DNA from: Thermococcus celericrescens
GTDB lineage: Archaea; Methanobacteriota_B; Thermococci; Thermococcales; Thermococcaceae
Length of the DNA: 35,562 nucleotides
Direction of reading: 5' to 3'
Assembly (NCBI RefSeq): GCF_001484195.1
Contig: NZ_LLYW01000021.1
Coordinates: 1 to 35,562, forward strand
This document shows positions 276 to 35,562 of the stretch, in pieces. The notes beneath the pieces were generated by a model, which saw only the letters and a program-made list of their open reading frames with translations, was not told the DNA's origin and ran no database searches. Position 1 is the stretch's first letter; each line of letters begins with the position of its first letter. Both the position numbers and the translations under genes were made by a program.

Positions 276-1725
276 CTTTTTCTCTCGAAAGCTTCACCCT
301 TCAAGGTGGGGATGCGGTGAACCGCCCAACAGCCCTCAAAGAGGAAAGCAAACTATTTTAAAGCCTAAGAACAATACCATACTTTGGAATGAGGCGAGCA
401 GTAACGGTAAAACTCCAACCCTCAAAGGAACAGGAGAAAACACTCTTCGAGTTAGCCGATACTGGAGCTAAAGTCTGGAACCGAGTGAATTATCTGAGAA
501 GACGAGAATTCTTTGAAGGCAAGCCCGTGGACTTCCTCAAAACCGAGAAGATAGTTTATGAAGAGTTTAAGAAGGAAATCGGCTCGGCAACAGTCCAGCA
601 AATCTGCAGGAAGAACGCTGAAAGCTGGAGAAGCTTCTTTTCCCTCCTCAGGAAAAGGCGGAATGGAGAACTACCCGAATGGCTCAAACCAAAACCCCCA
701 AACTACATCAAAGAAGGAGGCTTAATAGTCCTCAGAAACGACCAGTACAGGATTGAAGACAACAGGTTAATCCTCAAGGGACTCGGAAAGTTCAAACGCC
801 TCGAAGTCCAGTTTAAAGGCAGGATACACTTCAAAGGCAAGCAGGGGAGACTGGAAATCACCTACGATACCGTTAAGCAGAAGTGGTATGCTCACGTCAG
901 CTTTACCGTGGAAAAGAAACTGGTCAATGATAAATGGGTGAGAGTTCCAAGACGACCGTTAGGCAACCTCTCCGCTGGAATTGACTTGGGAGTGAACAAT
1001 CTCATGGCCGTTTACGTTGAAAACGGCGAAAGCTTCCTTGTGAACGGAAGACCATTAAAGTCAATCGCCTTTTACTGGCGGAAGAGGATTGCAGAGTATC
1101 AGTCCAAAATCAACAAAAGCGGTGCAAAGAAGAGTAAGAACCTCAAGAGGATGCACGAGAAAGCCAAACTCCAGGCGAGGCATTACATTAACACTGCCGT
1201 AAGGCAAACCCTTGAGAGGCTTTATCAGTTGGGCGTTGGCAGGATTGTCATTGGTTATCCAAAAGGAATCGCCAGAAACTCTGAGAAGAGCAGGAAACAA
1301 AACTTCCTCCTCTCTCACGTTTGGCGGTTCAATTATGTTATCAAACGCTTGAAGGAAGTGGCTGAGGAGTATGGCATCGTTGTTGAGGTTGTTGGTGAGG
1401 CTTTTACTTCTAAGCTTTGCCCTGTCTGCGGGAAGCCCCACGAGGGGGCGAGATTTGTTCGTGGTTTGTTTAAGTGTCCCGTGACGGGGCTTGTGTTTAA
1501 TGCGGATTTAGTTGGTGCTTTCAATATCTTGAGGAAGGCCGTAAAAACCATAACCCCGAGCCTCTCCGCTTTAGCGGGAGGTAGGGGTAACTGGCCTAAG
1601 ACCTGGCCGGAGGGGTCGAAGACCCAAGTTAGTTTGGGCTTTAATGAAACCCCTCAAACCTCCCCGTCAATGGTGAGGGGTTAACTCGTTGGAACCCTCA
1701 CCCATCACGGCGAGGAGGAGGTCAG
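276..1725 (+). mobile_element. tnpB-only IS200/IS605-family element, complete
   Basis: The left boundary follows TTAC (272-275), and the left end resembles the left end at 35146 (both run C/T-rich, then GAAAGC, then a GGGGATGC block). The right end reads GAGGGGTTAA, GTTGGAACCC and GAGGAGGTCAG, shared with the minus-strand element at 12882-13206. Setting the right boundary at 1725 restores the reading frame of the interrupted minus-strand gene exactly, with no target duplication. This matches the known behaviour of IS200/IS605 elements, which insert 3' of a short target motif without duplicating it. No tnpA is inside, so movement would need a TnpA in trans, such as the one starting at 35267. 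Confidence 0.85.
389..1684 (+). CDS. tnpB: TnpB, RNA-guided nuclease of an IS605-type element
   Basis: 431 aa, the usual length for archaeal TnpB. It starts MRRAVTVKLQPS and has an N-terminal helical and beta-barrel region followed by a RuvC-like nuclease. Visible catalytic residues are Asp near 199 (GIDLGVNN), Glu near 337 (VVGEAFTSK) and Asp near 372 (FNADLVGA), so the D-E-D set is intact. The zinc-ribbon has CPVC near 344-347 but KCPVT near 362-365, so the fourth Cys is replaced by Thr. This may be a lineage variant. By family knowledge, TnpB is guided by a right-end (omega/re) RNA and cuts DNA next to the target motif, here expected to be TTAC. The basic C-terminal tail overlaps the presumed guide-RNA scaffold. 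Confidence 0.93.
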   Translation: MRRAVTVKLQPSKEQEKTLFELADTGAKVWNRVNYLRRREFFEGKPVDFLKTEKIVYEEFKKEIGSATVQQICRKNAESWRSFFSLLRKRRNGELPEWLKPKPPNYIKEGGLIVLRNDQYRIEDNRLILKGLGKFKRLEVQFKGRIHFKGKQGRLEITYDTVKQKWYAHVSFTVEKKLVNDKWVRVPRRPLGNLSAGIDLGVNNLMAVYVENGESFLVNGRPLKSIAFYWRKRIAEYQSKINKSGAKKSKNLKRMHEKAKLQARHYINTAVRQTLERLYQLGVGRIVIGYPKGIARNSEKSRKQNFLLSHVWRFNYVIKRLKEVAEEYGIVVEVVGEAFTSKLCPVCGKPHEGARFVRGLFKCPVTGLVFNADLVGAFNILRKAVKTITPSLSALAGGRGNWPKTWPEGSKTQVSLGFNETPQTSPSMVRG

Positions 1726-1889: not shown

Positions 1890-4865
1890 ATGTCAGGGAA
1901 GAAGGGTGAGAAAAAGCTCTACTACCACGGACTCAAGGAGCAGAAGAAGCTCAACGTATCGAGGCTCAAATACCTCTCGATTCTCCTGTCTGTAATCGGC
2001 GTCGCCGTTCTGCTCGTTGCCGCCCAGAGCGCCCAGGCACCGCTCGTCAGGGTGAGCGACGTCTACGGCAACTACCTGATGAACTACGCCGTCGTCAGGA
2101 TAAACGGAACGGTCGTTACGGTGCCCTACGTCTCTCAGACCGGCGGGAAGCTCGGCCTCACCTTCACGGTGGACGACGGAACGGGGCAGATAGACGTCAG
2201 GGTCTACTCCCCGCTCGCCGATGAGATGATACGGAAGGGTCTCGTTCCCTTCCCCGGCGACGAGGTGACGGCCGAGGTTCAGCTCCGCGTGAGGGAAACC
2301 TACACCTACTCGATGCTTCAGTACCTCGACGGCCTGAATTTCCGCTCGAAACTCTACTCCGATAATCCGCCCATCGTCAAGTCCCTCAACGCCAACATGA
2401 GCGGCTCCTACGTGGCCGTTGAGGGCATCGTCACCGAGTTCTCCAACGTCAGCTCCGGCTACCTGATGACCGTCGATACCGGCGACTCCCTTGTTTCCGT
2501 GCTCGTCCCGAGGGTTCTTCTCGTCTTCAACAACCTCTCCGTCAAGGTCGGCGACACCCTCTACGCCCCTGGAATAGTCTACCTCTACAAGGGCACTTCG
2601 CCGGAGATAGTCGTCAGGAACATCACCCGGCTCTCGGTGACCCCGATCGAAGAAGCTCCCGTCGTTCCGATAGGCGAGGCACCCAACTATCCGGGAATGG
2701 TCATGGCCGTTGAGGGAACGCTCGCTGGAATAACCTACGAGAACGGCCGCTACGTTCTGACCCTCACCGATGGAGAAGACTACCTCGACGCCCTCGTCCC
2801 GAGGGACATTCTCCCGAACCTCAACCCCTTCAACGCCTCGAGCGAGAGCACGGTCAGGGTCGCGGGAAGAATGGGGGACGACGGCAGGCTCGTTGCGGCC
2901 TACCTGGAGGTCGCCAAGCCCATGAAGATGGAGTTCAAGCCCATCGGAACCCTGACCCTCGACATGCGCGGCTCGATAGCGGCCGTGAGGGGCAACATCG
3001 AGGAGGTCGATAGAATAGGCTCGAACCTTAAGCTCGTCATCGACGACGGAACCGGAAGGCTGGACGTCTTCATCCCCTCGGCCGCCCTCGCGGAGCTCTC
3101 CAACGAGACGATGGCTCAGCTTAAGGTCGGCCTTGGAGTCGAGGTCGCCGGCTACCTCGAGGAGTACCGCGGAAAGCTTGAGGTGGTCGTTTACACCGGA
3201 GGTGGAATAAAGGCCCTCGGAGAGCCGCTCCCGCCGGAGGAGATAGAGCTCCCGAAGGTCACCGCGGCTCGGCTCGCTGACTATGAGGGCCAGCTCGTGG
3301 ATTTCGCGGGTTCAATCGAGGGCGTAACCTACGCCAACGGCACCTACTACCTCACCGTGGACGGCGTTAAGGCTTCGCTCCCGAGGGAGGCCTTGCTGAA
3401 CCTCAACCCGCTCGAGGTCGGAACCGGGAGTCAGGTCACGGTCAGGGGCCTGGTGGCTGGAGAGAACCTCGTGAAGGGCGAGAACCTCACCGTTGAGGTG
3501 CCGATAGCCCCGATTCCTCTCAAGCCCGACGAGGTTACCCCCGAGATGGAGGGCCAGCTCGTCGCGGTCGTTGGTAAAGTAACCGACGTGGCCAACCTCA
3601 GCGGCAACCTCAAGATAGTCGTCGGCAACCTTCCGGTCTTCGTGCCGCGCTCAACCGCCAACGAGCTGGCCTACGTCCCGGCCAAGGGCGACCTGGTGCA
3701 GATCGGCGGATACGTTGAAATCTACCGCGACGAGCCGGAGGTAGTGCTCTTCAACCCTGCCTCAATCGAGAAGATTGAGCAGGCTGGGCCCGTTGAGGGT
3801 ACCGTCTCCGACCTGAAGACCGCAATGGAACCCCTCCTCCTGACGGTTACGTGGGACTCAATTGCCTACCAGAAACCCGACTACGCCCTGACTTTCCACG
3901 ACTCCACCGGAAGCGCAACCCTGCTTGCCGAGCGCTCCCTCCTGCCCAACCCGCTTAAAGCAGGAACGGGCAGCACGCTGAGGGTGATAGCCGACCCGCT
4001 CTCCGGCAGGATAACCGCGCTGAACGTCACAAATGCCAGGCCCTCGCCGCTGGTCAGGACCGGCTCGGTGGACCTCTCGATGAAGGGCAAAACCATAACC
4101 GTGAACGGAACGGTTTCGAGCCTCTTCACCCTCGGAAGCAATCTCAAGCTGACTGTAGATGACGGAAGCGGCGGAATAGCGGTCTTCATACCCGGCGGCG
4201 CCAACCTGAGCGTCGAGAAGGGTCAGAGCGTTACCCTCGCTGGCTACGTGGACGAGTACGACGGCGAGGCCGAGGTTATAGTCTACGACCTCGATGCGGT
4301 CGTGGCGGCGGAGAAGCCCTCAGGAGGAACCGCGGGAATCGGAGAGGTGAAGGTCTCGGAGCTTTCCGCCGCCACCGGAAGGGTGAACCTCACCGTCACC
4401 TGGGATGGGTTGAGCTACGAGGACGGCTACGTCATGAAGGTCCACGACGACACCGGAAGCGCTGAGCTGTCAGTCTCGCGCGATGTCCTCCCCGACCTGA
4501 GGGAAGCGGGAACTGGAAGCACGCTGAGGATAACCTACAACGCCGACTCCGGTGAGGTGGTTTCCATAACCGTCGTCGAGGCGGTTCCGGCGGAGGAATT
4601 AAGGACGGGTGACGTTACCCTGAACCTCCTCGGAACGACTGTGGTCGTTGAGGGAACCGTGGTGGACGTCTACACCGGCAGCACCTTTGTCAAGCTGACC
4701 ATCGACGACGGAAGCGGAGAGCTGGTGGTCTTTATACCCAAGAGCGTGGCAGGGGACTTAACCTTCAGCGAGGGTCAGACGGTCAGGATTGCGGGCTACG
4801 TTGCCGAGTACAAGGGAACCGTTGAGGTCATTCCTTACAGGAGTGACTGCATTGAGGTGAGGTGA
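1890..4865 (+). CDS. membrane-anchored multi-OB-fold repeat protein
   Basis: 991 aa. A basic N-terminus (KKGEKKLYYHGLKEQKK) precedes one hydrophobic segment at about residues 28-47. The rest is predicted to lie outside the membrane. It is built from roughly ten tandem OB-fold-like units spaced about 85-100 residues apart. Each is marked by a strand such as VDDGTGQIDV (near 93), IDDGTGRLDVFIP (near 384), VDDGSGGIAVFIP (near 756) or IDDGSGELVVFIP (near 938), followed by a GYxxEYxGxxEV strand. Two unit types alternate, one ending in VFIP and one resembling HDDTGSAxLxxxxxLP. OB-folds of this tRNA_anti type usually bind nucleic acid or oligosaccharide; the ligand here is unknown. The stop overlaps the start of the next gene (TGATG), and the third gene of the operon also contains an OB-fold. 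Confidence 0.8.
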   Translation: MSGKKGEKKLYYHGLKEQKKLNVSRLKYLSILLSVIGVAVLLVAAQSAQAPLVRVSDVYGNYLMNYAVVRINGTVVTVPYVSQTGGKLGLTFTVDDGTGQIDVRVYSPLADEMIRKGLVPFPGDEVTAEVQLRVRETYTYSMLQYLDGLNFRSKLYSDNPPIVKSLNANMSGSYVAVEGIVTEFSNVSSGYLMTVDTGDSLVSVLVPRVLLVFNNLSVKVGDTLYAPGIVYLYKGTSPEIVVRNITRLSVTPIEEAPVVPIGEAPNYPGMVMAVEGTLAGITYENGRYVLTLTDGEDYLDALVPRDILPNLNPFNASSESTVRVAGRMGDDGRLVAAYLEVAKPMKMEFKPIGTLTLDMRGSIAAVRGNIEEVDRIGSNLKLVIDDGTGRLDVFIPSAALAELSNETMAQLKVGLGVEVAGYLEEYRGKLEVVVYTGGGIKALGEPLPPEEIELPKVTAARLADYEGQLVDFAGSIEGVTYANGTYYLTVDGVKASLPREALLNLNPLEVGTGSQVTVRGLVAGENLVKGENLTVEVPIAPIPLKPDEVTPEMEGQLVAVVGKVTDVANLSGNLKIVVGNLPVFVPRSTANELAYVPAKGDLVQIGGYVEIYRDEPEVVLFNPASIEKIEQAGPVEGTVSDLKTAMEPLLLTVTWDSIAYQKPDYALTFHDSTGSATLLAERSLLPNPLKAGTGSTLRVIADPLSGRITALNVTNARPSPLVRTGSVDLSMKGKTITVNGTVSSLFTLGSNLKLTVDDGSGGIAVFIPGGANLSVEKGQSVTLAGYVDEYDGEAEVIVYDLDAVVAAEKPSGGTAGIGEVKVSELSAATGRVNLTVTWDGLSYEDGYVMKVHDDTGSAELSVSRDVLPDLREAGTGSTLRITYNADSGEVVSITVVEAVPAEELRTGDVTLNLLGTTVVVEGTVVDVYTGSTFVKLTIDDGSGELVVFIPKSVAGDLTFSEGQTVRIAGYVAEYKGTVEVIPYRSDCIEVR

Positions 4866-12321: not shown

Positions 12322-12770
12322 CATGGGTGCTGATAGCGGTCATAGTTGTCTTCATCTTCCAGTTCGGCCTTAAGGTTGCGCTCCACACTGACTCCCCCCT
12401 CGTCATAGTCGTTAGCGGCTCGATGGAGCCCGTCTTCTACCGCGGGGACGTCGTCCTGCTGAAGGGGATAAGCGAGGAGAACATCGACGATGTTCACATC
12501 AATGACGTCATCGTTTACAAGCGTCCCGGCTACGAGTATCCCATCATCCATCGCGTTAGGGAGATAAGCGAGGTGAACCTCGGCGGTAAGACCGAGAAGT
12601 GCTTCCTCACGTGGGGCGACAACAACTGGGCCCCTGACCCAGAATACCCGACCCCCTACGGTATGGTGCCGTGCGTCCCGGCCTACGCCGTCGAGGACAA
12701 GGCCCTGCTGGTGCTCCCGAAGATAGGCCTCATTCCCCTTGAAATCAGGGAGAACCTGGGCCTGGGATGA
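12294..12770 (+). CDS. signal peptidase I, archaeal type
   Basis: 158 aa from the ATG at 12294, preceded by TGGAGG at 12281-12286; the longer in-frame start at 12237 would lie inside DUF531 and has no RBS. One N-terminal membrane segment (WVLIAVIVVFIFQFGL) is followed by the catalytic box VVSGSMEPVFYRGDVV with Ser near 43. PIIHRV near 82 has the His that replaces the bacterial Lys in archaeal and eukaryotic SPC enzymes, and WGDNN near 104 has the conserved Asp. It cleaves signal peptides at the outer face of the membrane. It overlaps DUF531, so the two are co-expressed. Confidence 0.9.
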   Translation: MEDGWKKDLAWVLIAVIVVFIFQFGLKVALHTDSPLVIVVSGSMEPVFYRGDVVLLKGISEENIDDVHINDVIVYKRPGYEYPIIHRVREISEVNLGGKTEKCFLTWGDNNWAPDPEYPTPYGMVPCVPAYAVEDKALLVLPKIGLIPLEIRENLGLG

Positions 12771-12858
12771 TGTGAGGGTAGGTGGCCGAGCGGTGCGATG
12801 AGGAACTAATCGGCCCCTGACCGGGAACTTTTGCCGGGCGGAGGCGTGATCTAAATTC
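12767..12858 (+). ncRNA. candidate small structured RNA (possible C/D box sRNA)
   Basis: Right after the signal peptidase stop, GGCCGA (12784-12789) pairs with TCGGCC (12810-12815), and CCGG (12821-12824) pairs with CCGG (12834-12837). GCGATGA (12795-12801) resembles a C' box, CTGA (12817-12820) a D box, and ATGATGT (12767-12773) an imperfect C box. A T-rich stretch follows. Such features fit an archaeal C/D box guide RNA or another small RNA, but the boxes are not perfect and no target was matched. It starts like a tRNA (GGTGGCCGAGCGGT) but has no acceptor stem or T-arm. Confidence 0.3.
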
Positions 12859-12872
12859 GTTTTTATTTTGTT
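12858..12872 (+). terminator. T-rich transcription terminator
   Basis: CGTTTTTATTTTGTT follows the DUF531-signal peptidase operon and the possible small RNA. Runs of T are the usual archaeal termination signal. Confidence 0.55.
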
Positions 12873-12881
12873 AGAACATCC

Positions 12882-13206
12882 CTGACCTCCTCCCCGCCTT
12901 AGATAGGGGTTCCAACGGTTTAACCCCTCGCTAAGGGTGGAGAGGTTTTTGGGCACTCATCCCCTACTCCCGTCGCCGGTTTCAGCTCGGCCCGAGGGGA
13001 CGGTCTTGCTCTCATTACCCCTACCGCCAGACCGGATTGGGGTTATCGCTTAAGGCCACTCGCGGATTTCAAACCACTCCAAGGCGGAGTGGTAACTGAA
13101 ACCCTCGCCCCATCGGGTTCTTTTGAGTGGCCTCCCCAAGGCCTTACTACACTCCAAAGTTCAAAAGGGTTTCGACTGTTGGAATGCCGGATTGCCGGAG
13201 AAAAAT
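12882..13206 (-). mobile_element. 325-bp non-autonomous IS200/IS605-type element
   Basis: On the minus strand the element begins right after TTAC (complement of 13207-13210) with ATTTTTCTCC, matching the C/T-rich starts of the other two IS ends here. It finishes with GAGGGGTTAA, CGTTGGAACCC and GGGAGGAGGTCAG, matching the right end at 1675-1725. A remnant of the TnpB C-terminus is readable before that (DECPKTSPPLARG then stop at 12920-12922, compare ETPQTSPSMVRG then stop in the intact tnpB). The similarity continues past the stop codon. It has no transposase gene and would depend on TnpA in trans. No functional gene was found in 12873-13233. Confidence 0.7.
13054..13132. repeat. three-way-junction inverted repeats inside the small IS element
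   Basis: GGCCACTC (13054-13061) pairs with GAGTGGCC (13125-13132). Inside are two further perfect hairpins: CCACTCC (13074-13080) with GGAGTGG (13086-13092), and AACCC (13100-13104) with GGGTT (13115-13119). Together they form a closed three-way junction. This may be part of a guide-RNA scaffold or of the transposon's structured DNA. Confidence 0.55.
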
Positions 13207-13233
13207 GTAACCGCCGGGATTGGGGAGATGCGT

Positions 13234-13366: not shown

Positions 13367-14149
13367 CTAATACCCCCTTTTAATCTCCTCGAAGTACTCC
13401 AAGAGCGACTCCGCAATCTCCTGGGACTCGATTCTAACGCTCACCTCGTGATTCCAGTCCAGCGCGGCCTCGCTCCAGTTGTGGCTTCCGATGTAAACCA
13501 CCCTGTCGTCTATCACCACCATCTTTGTGTGGAGGGTTACCGAGGGGGAATCAAAGACCACATCGACCCCGTTGGAGCGGAGGTAGTCGTAGGTGGCCAT
13601 GTTGTCTTCGATGCCGTTTTCGAGTATCACGTGGACGCTCACGCCCCTCTTCCTGGCCTCCACCAGCGCCCTTATCAGGTCGTTGGCGTGATCGTAGCTA
13701 TCGTTGGGGTCGTACTTCATGAGGAACATAGTGACGTAAACGCTCTCCCGCGCACCGCGTATGTCCTCGATGAGGCTCCTGTAATACGCGTCGTCCACCA
13801 ACAGTTCTGTCGGGGGGGCGTTCTCCTCCCTTTTTGACCCCTCCAGCAGGCAGTCGCGGTACTTCGCGCTGAGCTCCTCCAGGCTCTCACTCGTCCGGGC
13901 TAACGTCGAGTTCAGGAGCCGGAGGTTCTCGATGCAGGCAGTGAGGTTCTTTCTGAGCTCCGTTTCAACACTGTGGTTCTCGATGTACTTGGTTTCTGTC
14001 ACGGTGAGGGTTTCAGTGACCGTTCTGGTTTTTTCCAGAGTAACGGTTTCCTCGGTGGTGGCTTCCAGGGTTGAGGTTCTCCCAAGACAGCCCGCCACTG
14101 CGAGCATCGCTGCCACCAGTACGGCCGCTAGGTACACTTTTGATCGCAT
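13367..14149 (-). CDS. PLD-family nuclease/phosphodiesterase lipoprotein
   Basis: 260 aa. The N-terminus has a lipoprotein-type signal (YLAAVLVAAMLAVAGC, lipobox Cys near 21). A Thr/Glu-rich stalk and coiled-coil segment (about 25-110) follow, then one phospholipase D domain. The HKD motif is LHTKMVVIDDRVVYIGSHNWS near 207-227. A single HKD with this spacing is typical of Nuc-type phosphodiesterases that act as dimers. The protein is predicted to be tethered outside the cell membrane, where it could degrade nucleic acid or phospholipid. A TATA-like GCTTTAAGG at about 14168-14177 (minus sense) sits so close to the ATG that the message may be leaderless. Confidence 0.82.
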   Translation of the reverse strand: MRSKVYLAAVLVAAMLAVAGCLGRTSTLEATTEETVTLEKTRTVTETLTVTETKYIENHSVETELRKNLTACIENLRLLNSTLARTSESLEELSAKYRDCLLEGSKREENAPPTELLVDDAYYRSLIEDIRGARESVYVTMFLMKYDPNDSYDHANDLIRALVEARKRGVSVHVILENGIEDNMATYDYLRSNGVDVVFDSPSVTLHTKMVVIDDRVVYIGSHNWSEAALDWNHEVSVRIESQEIAESLLEYFEEIKRGY

Positions 14150-30886: not shown

Positions 30887-31129
30887 ATGGTTAGAAAAGT
30901 TAGGACAACTGTACTTATCTCTAGGGAGCTTCACCAAAAGGCAAAGGAGAGGGGCATAAACTTGAGCAAGCTTCTTGAAAGGGCCTTGATGATAGAGCTA
31001 GAACTTCTAGAAAGTATTGACTTGAAAAGGGAGGAGCTCTTGAGGCAAAGGCTCTTAGAGGATAAAGTTAAGAATGGGGATGAAAGAGTGACTGATGGGA
31101 TGATGAGTCTGGAGCCCCCTGATCGGTGA
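30887..31129 (+). CDS. integrase N-terminal part (IntN) with ribbon-helix-helix domain
   Basis: 80 aa from ATG 30887 as it stands. VRKVRTTVLISRELHQKAKERGINLSKLLERALMIELELLE is a ribbon-helix-helix DNA-binding pattern, followed by a charged helix. The frame enters the attR core (ATG ATG AGT CT) and then runs into host DNA as MMSLEPPDR and a stop. In the excised circle the same frame would continue MMSLDNKITS into the tyrosine recombinase at 14229, making a protein of about 788 aa. SSV-type integrases are split in the same way. The stop overlaps a GTG at 31126 (GTGA), so the host gene may now be translated by coupling to this one. Confidence 0.8.
   Translation: MVRKVRTTVLISRELHQKAKERGINLSKLLERALMIELELLESIDLKREELLRQRLLEDKVKNGDERVTDGMMSLEPPDR
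31096..31110 (+). repeat. attR core, TGGGATGATGAGTCT
   Basis: Second copy of the 15-bp att core. The next bases (GGAGCCCCC, then GATCGG and TTTCGCGG) are host-like: they contain the GATC and CpG words missing from the element. Confidence 0.85.
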
Positions 31130-31449
31130 GGAGGTTTCGCGGGGCTGACCGAGATGATAAGGAACGCCTCTGTCGGGAGTACCTGGAGGAAATCGACCGG
31201 CTGGAGCGCTCGCTCCGGGAGCTGGAGGAGGAGCTTATAGAGCTGAGAATGCAGCTGAACCTCAAGGTGGACGAGGCCAACAGGCTCGCCATAGAGAACG
31301 CAAGCTTGAGGCACAGGATTGAGATGATGGAGCGGCGCGAGAAACGATTGGTGGAGTTTCTCCGGAAGCTTAAGATTCCGGTAATATACATCGACGAGGA
31401 GAGGTTTGAGGACGTGGATGTGGACCTCGGTCCCGATTCGAAGGACTGA
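31126..31449 (+). CDS. coiled-coil hypothetical protein (host gene at attB)
   Basis: 107 aa with a GTG start inside GGTGAGGAGG. Almost all of it is a charged coiled coil (ERLCREYLEEIDRLERSLRELEEELIELRMQL, then ENASLRHRIEMMERREKRLVEFLRKL). It ends in a short strand PVIYIDEERFEDVDVD. I do not recognise a function. Host-type GC content. The element entered just upstream, so the original promoter and leader (14187-14224) are now 17 kb away; the ancestral leader would have encoded a 9-codon ORF MMSLEPPDR overlapping the GTG. Expression may now depend on the integrase promoter. In-frame ATG codons occur only far inside. Confidence 0.65.
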   Translation: MRRFRGADRDDKERLCREYLEEIDRLERSLRELEEELIELRMQLNLKVDEANRLAIENASLRHRIEMMERREKRLVEFLRKLKIPVIYIDEERFEDVDVDLGPDSKD

Positions 31450-35085: not shown

Positions 35086-35145
35086 GAGTATCCCCTCCAT
35101 AAGACTCTTCCGGAAGGTTATTAACACTTTTGTGTAGGTGTTTAC

Positions 35146-35562
35146 TTTTTTCTTTTGAAAGCCTCGCTCTTTAGGGCGGGGATGCAGTAATCGAAAGACC
35201 AGCCTGAGGGCAGGAAAGCGAAAAACATTTAAGCAATAAAACACACCATACATTAAGGGGTTCACAATGAAGCCTGAATCACCGAGAATCAAGAGGACAA
35301 GACATGCAAAACACTTCTTAACCTATCACTTTGTCTGGATACCAAAATACGGGAGGGACATTCTCGTTGGAAAAGTCGCTGAAAGGCTCAAAGAAATGCT
35401 CAAGGAATACTCCCAAGAAATCGGGTGTGAGGTCATTGCACTCGAAGTAATGCCAGACCACGTTCACGTTTTCCTCCAGGCAAAGCCAAACCTCTCGCCG
35501 GCCCAAATAGTGAACCACCTGAAGGGCAAAACCGCCAGAAAACTCCTTCAAGAATTCCCCGA
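35146..35562 (+). mobile_element. IS200/IS605-type element, left end and start of tnpA (partial)
   Basis: The left end follows TTTAC (35141-35145) with TTTTTTCTTTTGAAAGC, then GGGCGGGGATGCAGT, matching the left end of the element at 276. A TATA-like ACATTTAAGC (about 35225-35234) precedes tnpA. The element continues past the window. Confidence 0.8.
35267..35562 (+). CDS. tnpA: Y1 (HUH) transposase TnpA, N-terminal part
   Basis: 98 codons are in the window and the frame is open to the end. It begins MKPESPRIKRTRHAKHF, then LTYHFVWIPKYGRDIL, and contains ALEVMPDHVHVFLQAKP with the HUH pair His-Val-His, the mark of the IS200 single-strand transposase. The catalytic Tyr would lie beyond the window. 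TnpA excises and inserts single-stranded DNA next to a TTAC-type target and could move the tnpB-only and 325-bp elements in this window, whose ends look alike. Confidence 0.92.
   Translation, partial: MKPESPRIKRTRHAKHFLTYHFVWIPKYGRDILVGKVAERLKEMLKEYSQEIGCEVIALEVMPDHVHVFLQAKPNLSPAQIVNHLKGKTARKLLQEFP

Follow-up and report, generated by a model that had tools for sequence, protein, structure and literature searches.

Can a transposon derivative that carries no protein gene serve as a source of guide RNA for a nuclease encoded elsewhere in the genome? The question is raised by a 325-bp element in the stretch of Thermococcus celericrescens DNA analysed here (contig NZ_LLYW01000021.1, positions 1 to 35,562 of the forward strand; the whole stretch of 35,562 nucleotides is referred to as the window). 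A sequence-only reading had described it as a transposon derivative that keeps both ends and the omegaRNA region, and had suggested that it might make a stand-alone guide RNA for a TnpB acting in trans, such as the one encoded from position 389.

Borders and parts of the window element

The element lies on the minus strand, from 13206 to 12882. Its borders as read from the sequence are exact, and the TTAC and the flank guide that had been claimed for it were both recovered. From its sequence we class it as IS200/IS605-derived and gene-less. The TTAC target tetranucleotide (13207..13210, minus strand) adjoins the left end and is the putative TAM once the site is empty. The left end itself is reduced to a remnant, ATTTTTCT (13199..13206, minus strand); the left-end hairpin that follows in other copies is deleted. 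A BRE/TATA-like box, TCGAAACCCTTTTGAAC (13159..13175, minus strand), stands 24 nt ahead of AAGGCC, and the transcript start is predicted at ~13145–13150. Downstream lie a 5' RNA domain of which a three-way junction is left (13050..13149, minus strand), assigned from the fold of the window copy and from covariation in relatives, and the omegaRNA scaffold with helices P1–P5 and a GNRA hairpin, which includes the transposon right end (12882..13046, minus strand; 153.4 bits with the covariance model R1 described below, the training set of which contained the window copy). The right end reads ...GGAGGAGGTCAG and terminates at 12882. The flank directly past it begins GGATGTTCTAAC and forms the putative guide (GGATGTTCTAACAAAA, 12866..12881, minus strand, placed by its position after GTCAG). 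This guide occurs once in the own genome when up to two mismatches are allowed, and it is identical at a copy occupying the same site in genome G027 (L135).

The element is located downstream of a minus-strand ORF of the same direction (13367–14149) and converges on the C/D-box RNA sR36 (12763–12822), which is ~60 bp from its right end. A second C/D-box RNA of the window, sR23, is at 31098–31150. Together with the labels of the pattern-scan matches given below, these two archaeal RNAs point to the Thermococci. A long ORF elsewhere in the window contains three diverged 48-nt repeats (3030–4739; 67–79% identical to the first), which are probably repeated protein domains.

A possible partner protein is encoded at 389..1684 (plus strand) by a tnpB of 431 aa with OrfB_IS605 and Cas12f1-like_TNB. 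The omegaRNA scaffold of this element, made up of the tnpB tail and the right end (1550..1725, plus strand), was matched by R1 over model positions 1–170 of 170 (116.8 bits, E = 1.4e-39; R1 E-values are rough), and its guide starts after the scaffold, at 1726. Assignment of the putative RNA of the window copy to this TnpB in particular was rejected, since the genome contains many equal candidates: 24 uninterrupted tnpB stretches cover at least 399 of the 431 codons. In the alignment, the RuvC-II glutamate region of the window TnpB reads IVIGYPKG, and a Glu is found instead in GEAFTS ahead of the zinc-finger motif; rearranged TnpBs exist. At the window edge a tnpA-bearing element starts (35142..35562, plus strand; TTAC at 35142–35145, left end from 35146), whose Y1 transposase runs off the contig (PF01797 at 35318–35560, E = 7.9e-27). 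It is a possible source of transposase. The right-end hairpin of R1 also matched weakly in left ends, at 35155–35181 (E = 0.004) and 285–311 (E = 0.12) of the window.

A family of gene-less elements in the same genome

In the own genome (2,337,139 bases, 73 contigs), 58 stretches matched the window element. Eighteen of these loci are gene-less copies (L001–L018, L001 being the window copy), which answers the copy-number check that the sequence-only reading had proposed; most of the others are right ends of tnpB elements, L019 is a remnant, and L020 is part of L016. The 17 sister copies measure 382–415 bp (411 bp for L011), compared with 325 bp for the window copy. The absence of a protein gene, also claimed earlier, agrees with the reading frames, the longest of which (from a Met, Val or Leu start) varies between 63 and 134 codons among the 18 copies. 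As in a PATE (palindrome-associated transposable element), there is no transposase gene, 325 bp is too short for one, and the frame lengths differ between copies.

From left end to right end, the family is ordered as TNAC target, T-rich start, left-end hairpin, box, branched 5' domain, scaffold and flank. The box, CGAAACCCTTTTRAAC, fits the archaeal BRE plus TATA box consensus; the pattern is present in 17 of the 18 own copies, with the 24-nt distance to AAGGCC in 14. The scaffold reads ATAACCCC...GGTCAG and is followed by the flank: the copies listed end in GTCAG and continue into unrelated sequence, apart from rare deviations in the end itself, for example GTCCG in L093. The target tetranucleotide is TTAC in 12 own copies, TGAC in four, TCAC in one and TTCC in one (that of L011 was set by hand). 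Of 52 left-end positions of the tnpA element that starts at the window edge, 38–47 are identical in the 17 sisters and 27 in the window copy. The claim that the window element keeps both ends was therefore not confirmed: subterminal palindromes of the PATE type are present in the family, whereas the window copy has lost its left-end hairpin and has an altered right-end hairpin, with 6 of 8 pairs.

Sister copy L017 interrupts a coding gene; in genomes G021 and G032 its two flanks meet exactly. These two exact empty sites, both with the tetranucleotide CTAC, show insertion 3' of the tetranucleotide without target duplication. G010 was rejected as an empty site of L017, the same TTAC being occupied there by a tnpB-bearing element (L227, ~663–2124); 264 bases of the right flank are missing at this place, and independent insertion and recombination would account for the arrangement equally well. 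An empty site of the window copy was not found, its two flanks lying far apart in G021, G032 and G010. The own genome has three tnpA stretches, every one of them cut by a contig end. At sister copy L008 a CRISPR repeat (1444–1473, minus strand; Rfam CRISPR-DR6, 41 bits, cut-off 39) is found 27 nt past the right end, which may place this element within or next to a CRISPR array.

The scaffold covaries and is shared with tnpB tails

Pairing was counted on alignment A1, which holds 55 of 79 prepared gene-less scaffolds. It excludes near-duplicates, the chimera L081 and a number of copies that are divergent or shortened; L070, a duplicate of L010, was dropped throughout. With five helices, P1–P5, and the inner hairpins placed on A1, 92.2% of cells were paired, compared with 86.8% in shuffles. 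Cells changed on both sides numbered 103 versus 37.9 in shuffles; the covariation score was 0.199, whereas shuffles gave 0.104 and sliding the partners gave no more than 0.074. The scaffold hairpins thus covary, a point that the sequence-only reading had left to be checked. The strongest double changes are in P1b, P2 and the GNRA hairpin P3b, all far from the element ends. P5 doubles as DNA end hairpin, and its pairing is therefore not evidence for RNA alone.

The covariance model R1 was built from gene-less copies alone, with no tnpB tail in the training set. It matched positions 1–170 in every one of the 39 own-genome tnpB tails tested (59.0–129.3 bits; the loci were drawn from 73 tnpB stretches, some of them pieces of a single gene). 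The earlier claim that the element shares a tnpB tail overlapping the guide-RNA scaffold is borne out by this model, and the full-length matches identify the 3' half of the gene-less elements as TnpB omegaRNA scaffold.

The two kinds of scaffold differ in P3, which is long and within the coding region in tnpB tails and compact with a GNRA hairpin in gene-less copies. The GNRA hairpin after AAA was found in 68 of 80 gene-less copies versus 0 of 39 tnpB tails. In this count, two gene-less neighbours (in L035 and L042, the one in L042 having the hairpin) and four minor matches were set aside on the tnpB side, and one tnpB tail and one minor match on the gene-less side. L081 is a chimera, a gene-less element with a tnpB-type P3. 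We take the distribution of the hairpin to mean that the gene-less lineage follows an RNA evolution of its own.

A conserved, branched 5' domain

Alignment A2 contains 48 of 60 five-prime domains; 19 further copies had no start by the pattern used, and the row of the window copy aligns badly beyond its deletion. Over four helices, 95.6% of cells were paired in the 48 copies, 43 cells had changed on both sides versus 17.1 in shuffles, and the score was 0.152 versus at most 0.091 with slid partners. Neither pairs with a double change (4 versus 2.5, as high in 94 of 500 shuffles) nor pair types (as high in 484 of 500 shuffles) were clearly in excess. These counts were made on chosen helices because RNAalifold missed one arm, the length of which varies, and that arm is left out of them. 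An alternative first hairpin on the same central strand has equal support. The central strand of the domain (window 13050–13149, minus strand, and relatives) pairs with either of two strands, both kept in relatives; the two mutually exclusive pairings are a possible switch.

The three-way junction described by the sequence-only reading does fold in the window copy (−46.5 kcal/mol, z = −4.6), but it is the reduced form of this more branched domain, two arms of which are deleted by comparison with the sister copies. Outside gene-less elements the domain was not seen in a search of 61 genomes at E 1e-8 with the best 10 or fewer candidates per genome.

Wear of the window copy

The window copy retains the promoter box, the scaffold outline and the guide. 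Its scaffold has 31 of 39 pairs in the alignment of 55 chosen copies, the fewest there, with P2 at 4 of 6. In the model alignment of 80 copies it has 32 of 39; six copies have fewer (L088, L127, L091, L153, L092 and L133) and five others equal it, so that its scaffold cannot be called the poorest in the family. Degraded pairing had been named by the sequence-only reading as an argument against a stand-alone guide RNA, and the pairing found is low, not extreme. The tails of the 39 tnpB loci keep 26–38 of the 39 pairs. By R1 score the window copy ranks 17th of the 18 own copies and 62nd of 80 overall, and the predicted fold of its putative RNA (−124.8 kcal/mol, z = −4.7) is far more stable than those of shuffled sequences. 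The scaffold is somewhat weakened and could still be functional. Having lost the left-end hairpin, the copy is probably immobile.

At the same site in G027, L135 has near-identical flanks and guide around a full-length but strongly different element. Independent insertions of the two copies at one TTAC seem unlikely. The situation is most simply read as gene conversion, an exchange between copies that would uncouple flank age from element sequence.

Distribution and transcripts of relatives

A family-wide search, in which the best seven or fewer candidates were scored per genome, gave matches in 76 of 94 Thermococcaceae genomes, tnpB element right ends included. Matches that span 350 or more of the 411 query bases were taken as gene-less copies; they were present in at least 33 of the 94 genomes and in 5 of 6 genera. 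Within the genus, tnpB was detected at E 1e-40 in 38 of 61 genomes, and in 20 of the 23 that have a near-complete gene-less copy; it was not found at this threshold in G016, G038 (86% complete) and G050. A pattern scan of named genomes returned 15 stretches, all labelled MAG, 13 of which are labelled Thermococci, Thermococcus or Thermococcales; the two labelled Chloroflexi and Bdellovibrionaceae are taken as chance matches.

Assignment of the window element to a described Rfam family was rejected. The sole lax match was CRISPR-DR15 (23.2 bits, cut-off 36, E = 0.018), which we read as chance similarity of a hairpin. Rfam HgcC (RF00062, gathering cut-off 50 bits) gave no match in the window element at E up to 10. 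On gene-less relatives it reached at most 42.9 bits, below the cut-off, and sot0042 was likewise below its own; tnpB right ends were matched by HgcC as well, once over the cut-off (51.8 bits). At E up to 1, HgcC had matches in 6 of 14 control genomes and was over the cut-off in one, so that only strong matches count.

In T. kodakarensis, dRNA-seq detected five of seven HgcC RNAs; three start within transposase genes, HgcC4 and HgcC5 are unlinked to any, and the HgcC4 start is shared with TK1679 (PMC4247193). In G011, which we infer to be T. kodakarensis, HgcC-model matches were found, among others, at 251008, 424909, 743289, 1474300 and 1630043, with the spacing expected for TK0298, TK0495, TK0850, TK1679 and TK1820. 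The match at 1474300 (to 1474447, minus strand) is a left-truncated gene-less copy (L230) within a gene, downstream of a TATA-like box, and fits the published description of HgcC4. R1 gave 128.9–194.8 bits on two G011 tnpB tails and L230 (the L230 scaffold being in the training set as L089), and a weak 29.3 bits on the locus at 1630043. The published T. kodakarensis HgcC RNAs, as described there, appear to belong to the gene-less/TnpB scaffold family. Circular omegaRNAs are reported from other archaea (PMC12558985).

Proposed mobile guide-RNA genes and alternative readings

The gene-less elements have their ends and scaffold in common with those elements of the genome that carry tnpA or tnpB. 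A promoter-like box, a branched 5' domain that is conserved, and a covarying scaffold with flank directly after it are features of the family; and insertion, seen on sister copy L017, was exact and without duplication. In our estimate, the gene-less IS200/IS605 derivatives of the Thermococcaceae are probably a family of mobile guide-RNA genes, and the window element is one of its worn members. By anatomy, the family-level idea of a transposable stand-alone guide RNA using TnpB in trans is well supported, through the promoter-like box, the covarying scaffold of the tnpB-tail RNA family and the published transcripts of apparent family members. That the putative RNA of the window copy itself guides TnpB in trans is plausible. 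Weighing against the proposal are the wear of the window copy and the failure to find its empty site, the three genus genomes that have a near-complete gene-less copy but no tnpB at E 1e-40, the truncation of all three own tnpA stretches, and the two 5'-domain counts that stay within the range of shuffles.

Trans mobilisation and trans guidance are modelled here on the known IS200/IS605 pathway and on the anatomy of the elements. TnpA from complete elements would excise and insert gene-less copies via the end hairpins. The RNA would start at the 5' domain, run through the scaffold into the flank, and be bound by TnpB made elsewhere in the genome. Its flank part would then direct TnpB to TTAC plus guide on an allele of the same locus that lacks the element, and the cut would favour repair that restores the element.

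The strongest alternative, which we consider unlikely though deserving of serious weight, is an ordinary PATE, a passive end-carrying relic of which no guide RNA is used. The RNA-like part would then be kept by the need of TnpA for the ends and by refreshing recombination with tnpB copies. Copies do seem to exchange sequence, as judged from L135, a much diverged element between near-identical flanks at the same site, and from L081 with its tnpB-type P3; yet the GNRA hairpin covaries while being absent from all 39 tnpB tails, and therefore cannot be refreshed from them. Conservation of the promoter box and the 5' domain, neither of which is required by the ends, also speaks against a passive relic. 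The worn state of the window copy suits a relic, and precedents exist: archaeal PATEs are known and gene-less (PMC3119063), and a Halanaerobium PATE-like sequence has a tnpB end and a whole right end (PMC7290912).

Compared with mobile guide-RNA genes, it seems improbable that the stand-alone scaffold acts as a decoy or regulator, titrating TnpB or silencing the family and thereby limiting damage. Numerous copies with a promoter-like box alongside numerous tnpB genes would be consistent with such a role, but the unrelated flank directly after the scaffold end in the copies listed is something a decoy does not need, even if it comes free with insertion.

Scaffolds in host gene leaders

Scaffolds without transposon ends were found, on the sense strand, in the 5' leaders of several genes (gene names were read from translations). 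For rpl10e, 59 genomes gave a match, and in 5 of them it extends through the leader with the scaffold (L234:367-490, L235, L158:651-774 on the minus strand, L237 and L159, in genomes G024, G059, G058, G010 and G002), and the start codon is 33–36 nt downstream of the matched scaffold part. The scaffold in this leader is read as an insert, because the promoter part adjoins the gene directly in the 17 other genomes for which it is listed. The other leaders (L233:395-559, L242:446-614 on the minus strand, L232:457-589, L241:487-619 and L239:460-633 on the minus strand) belong to rpl1 (G009, G023), gdhA (G010), an acetyl-CoA synthetase-like gene (G005) and a PRC-barrel-like gene (G027). R1 gave 76.6–121.5 bits on seven leader scaffolds (L158, L232, L233, L234, L239, L241 and L242), two of the five rpl10e ones included.

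That some copies, perhaps the window copy among them, are now host regulatory RNAs or leaders is suggested by these end-less scaffolds in the leaders of rpl10e, rpl1, gdhA and the acetyl-CoA synthetase-like gene and by the rpl10e insert common to five genomes, but as an account of the window copy, which is not in a leader and lies downstream of the same-direction ORF 13367–14149, converging on sR36, it is the most doubtful of the alternatives.

Returning to mobile guide-RNA genes, we put forward as a tentative extension that the elements form an old Thermococcaceae transposon lineage with a guide RNA as sole product. They would be satellites that borrow TnpA for moving and TnpB for site defence, and together a genome-wide, trans-acting guide set, and the scaffold would have been captured repeatedly without ends as host 5' leaders (rpl10e, rpl1, gdhA), maybe as a host RNA element. 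If the family works as proposed, a transposon needs no protein of its own for RNA-guided site defence, promoter, scaffold, ends and flank being sufficient, and guide and nuclease are separated at the level of mobile elements, in parallel to crRNA arrays split from Cas genes. The leader insertions would then be cases of a guide-RNA scaffold captured by host genes. Three literatures, on PATEs, HgcC RNAs and omegaRNAs, would be joined, with T. kodakarensis as a direct test system.

Comparison with known systems

The family resembles the PATEs of IS200/IS605 in having no gene, IS605-type subterminal hairpins, no terminal inverted repeat, no target duplication and heterogeneous copies (PMC3119063). 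It differs in the promoter-like box, the conserved 5' RNA domain and the covarying omegaRNA scaffold, which are absent from the part of that paper available. The Halanaerobium PATE-like element is similar in having no tnpA but retaining the final 58 nt of tnpB together with the right end (PMC7290912); it is one sequence, and the word RNA does not occur in that text, whereas the Thermococcaceae elements are a family-wide lineage. In the open-licence literature we found no description of promoter-bearing gene-less TnpB guide-RNA elements, and the available parts of PMC11870625 and PMC6640164 hold nothing on them; with subscription papers outside its scope, this search gives weak evidence of absence.

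TnpB omegaRNAs, archaeal sotRNAs and HgcC RNAs share the scaffold family, as indicated by R1 on tnpB tails and by weak HgcC and sot0042 matches on gene-less copies. The gene-less scaffold differs from them in lying outside any tnpB, in its compact GNRA P3 in place of a long coding P3, and in the extra 5' domain. The stand-alone IscB omegaRNAs of Ktedonobacter are likewise guide scaffolds without an adjoining nuclease gene for which trans action has been proposed; they differ from the gene-less family in serving IscB, not TnpB, in being bacterial and in having an unrelated scaffold.
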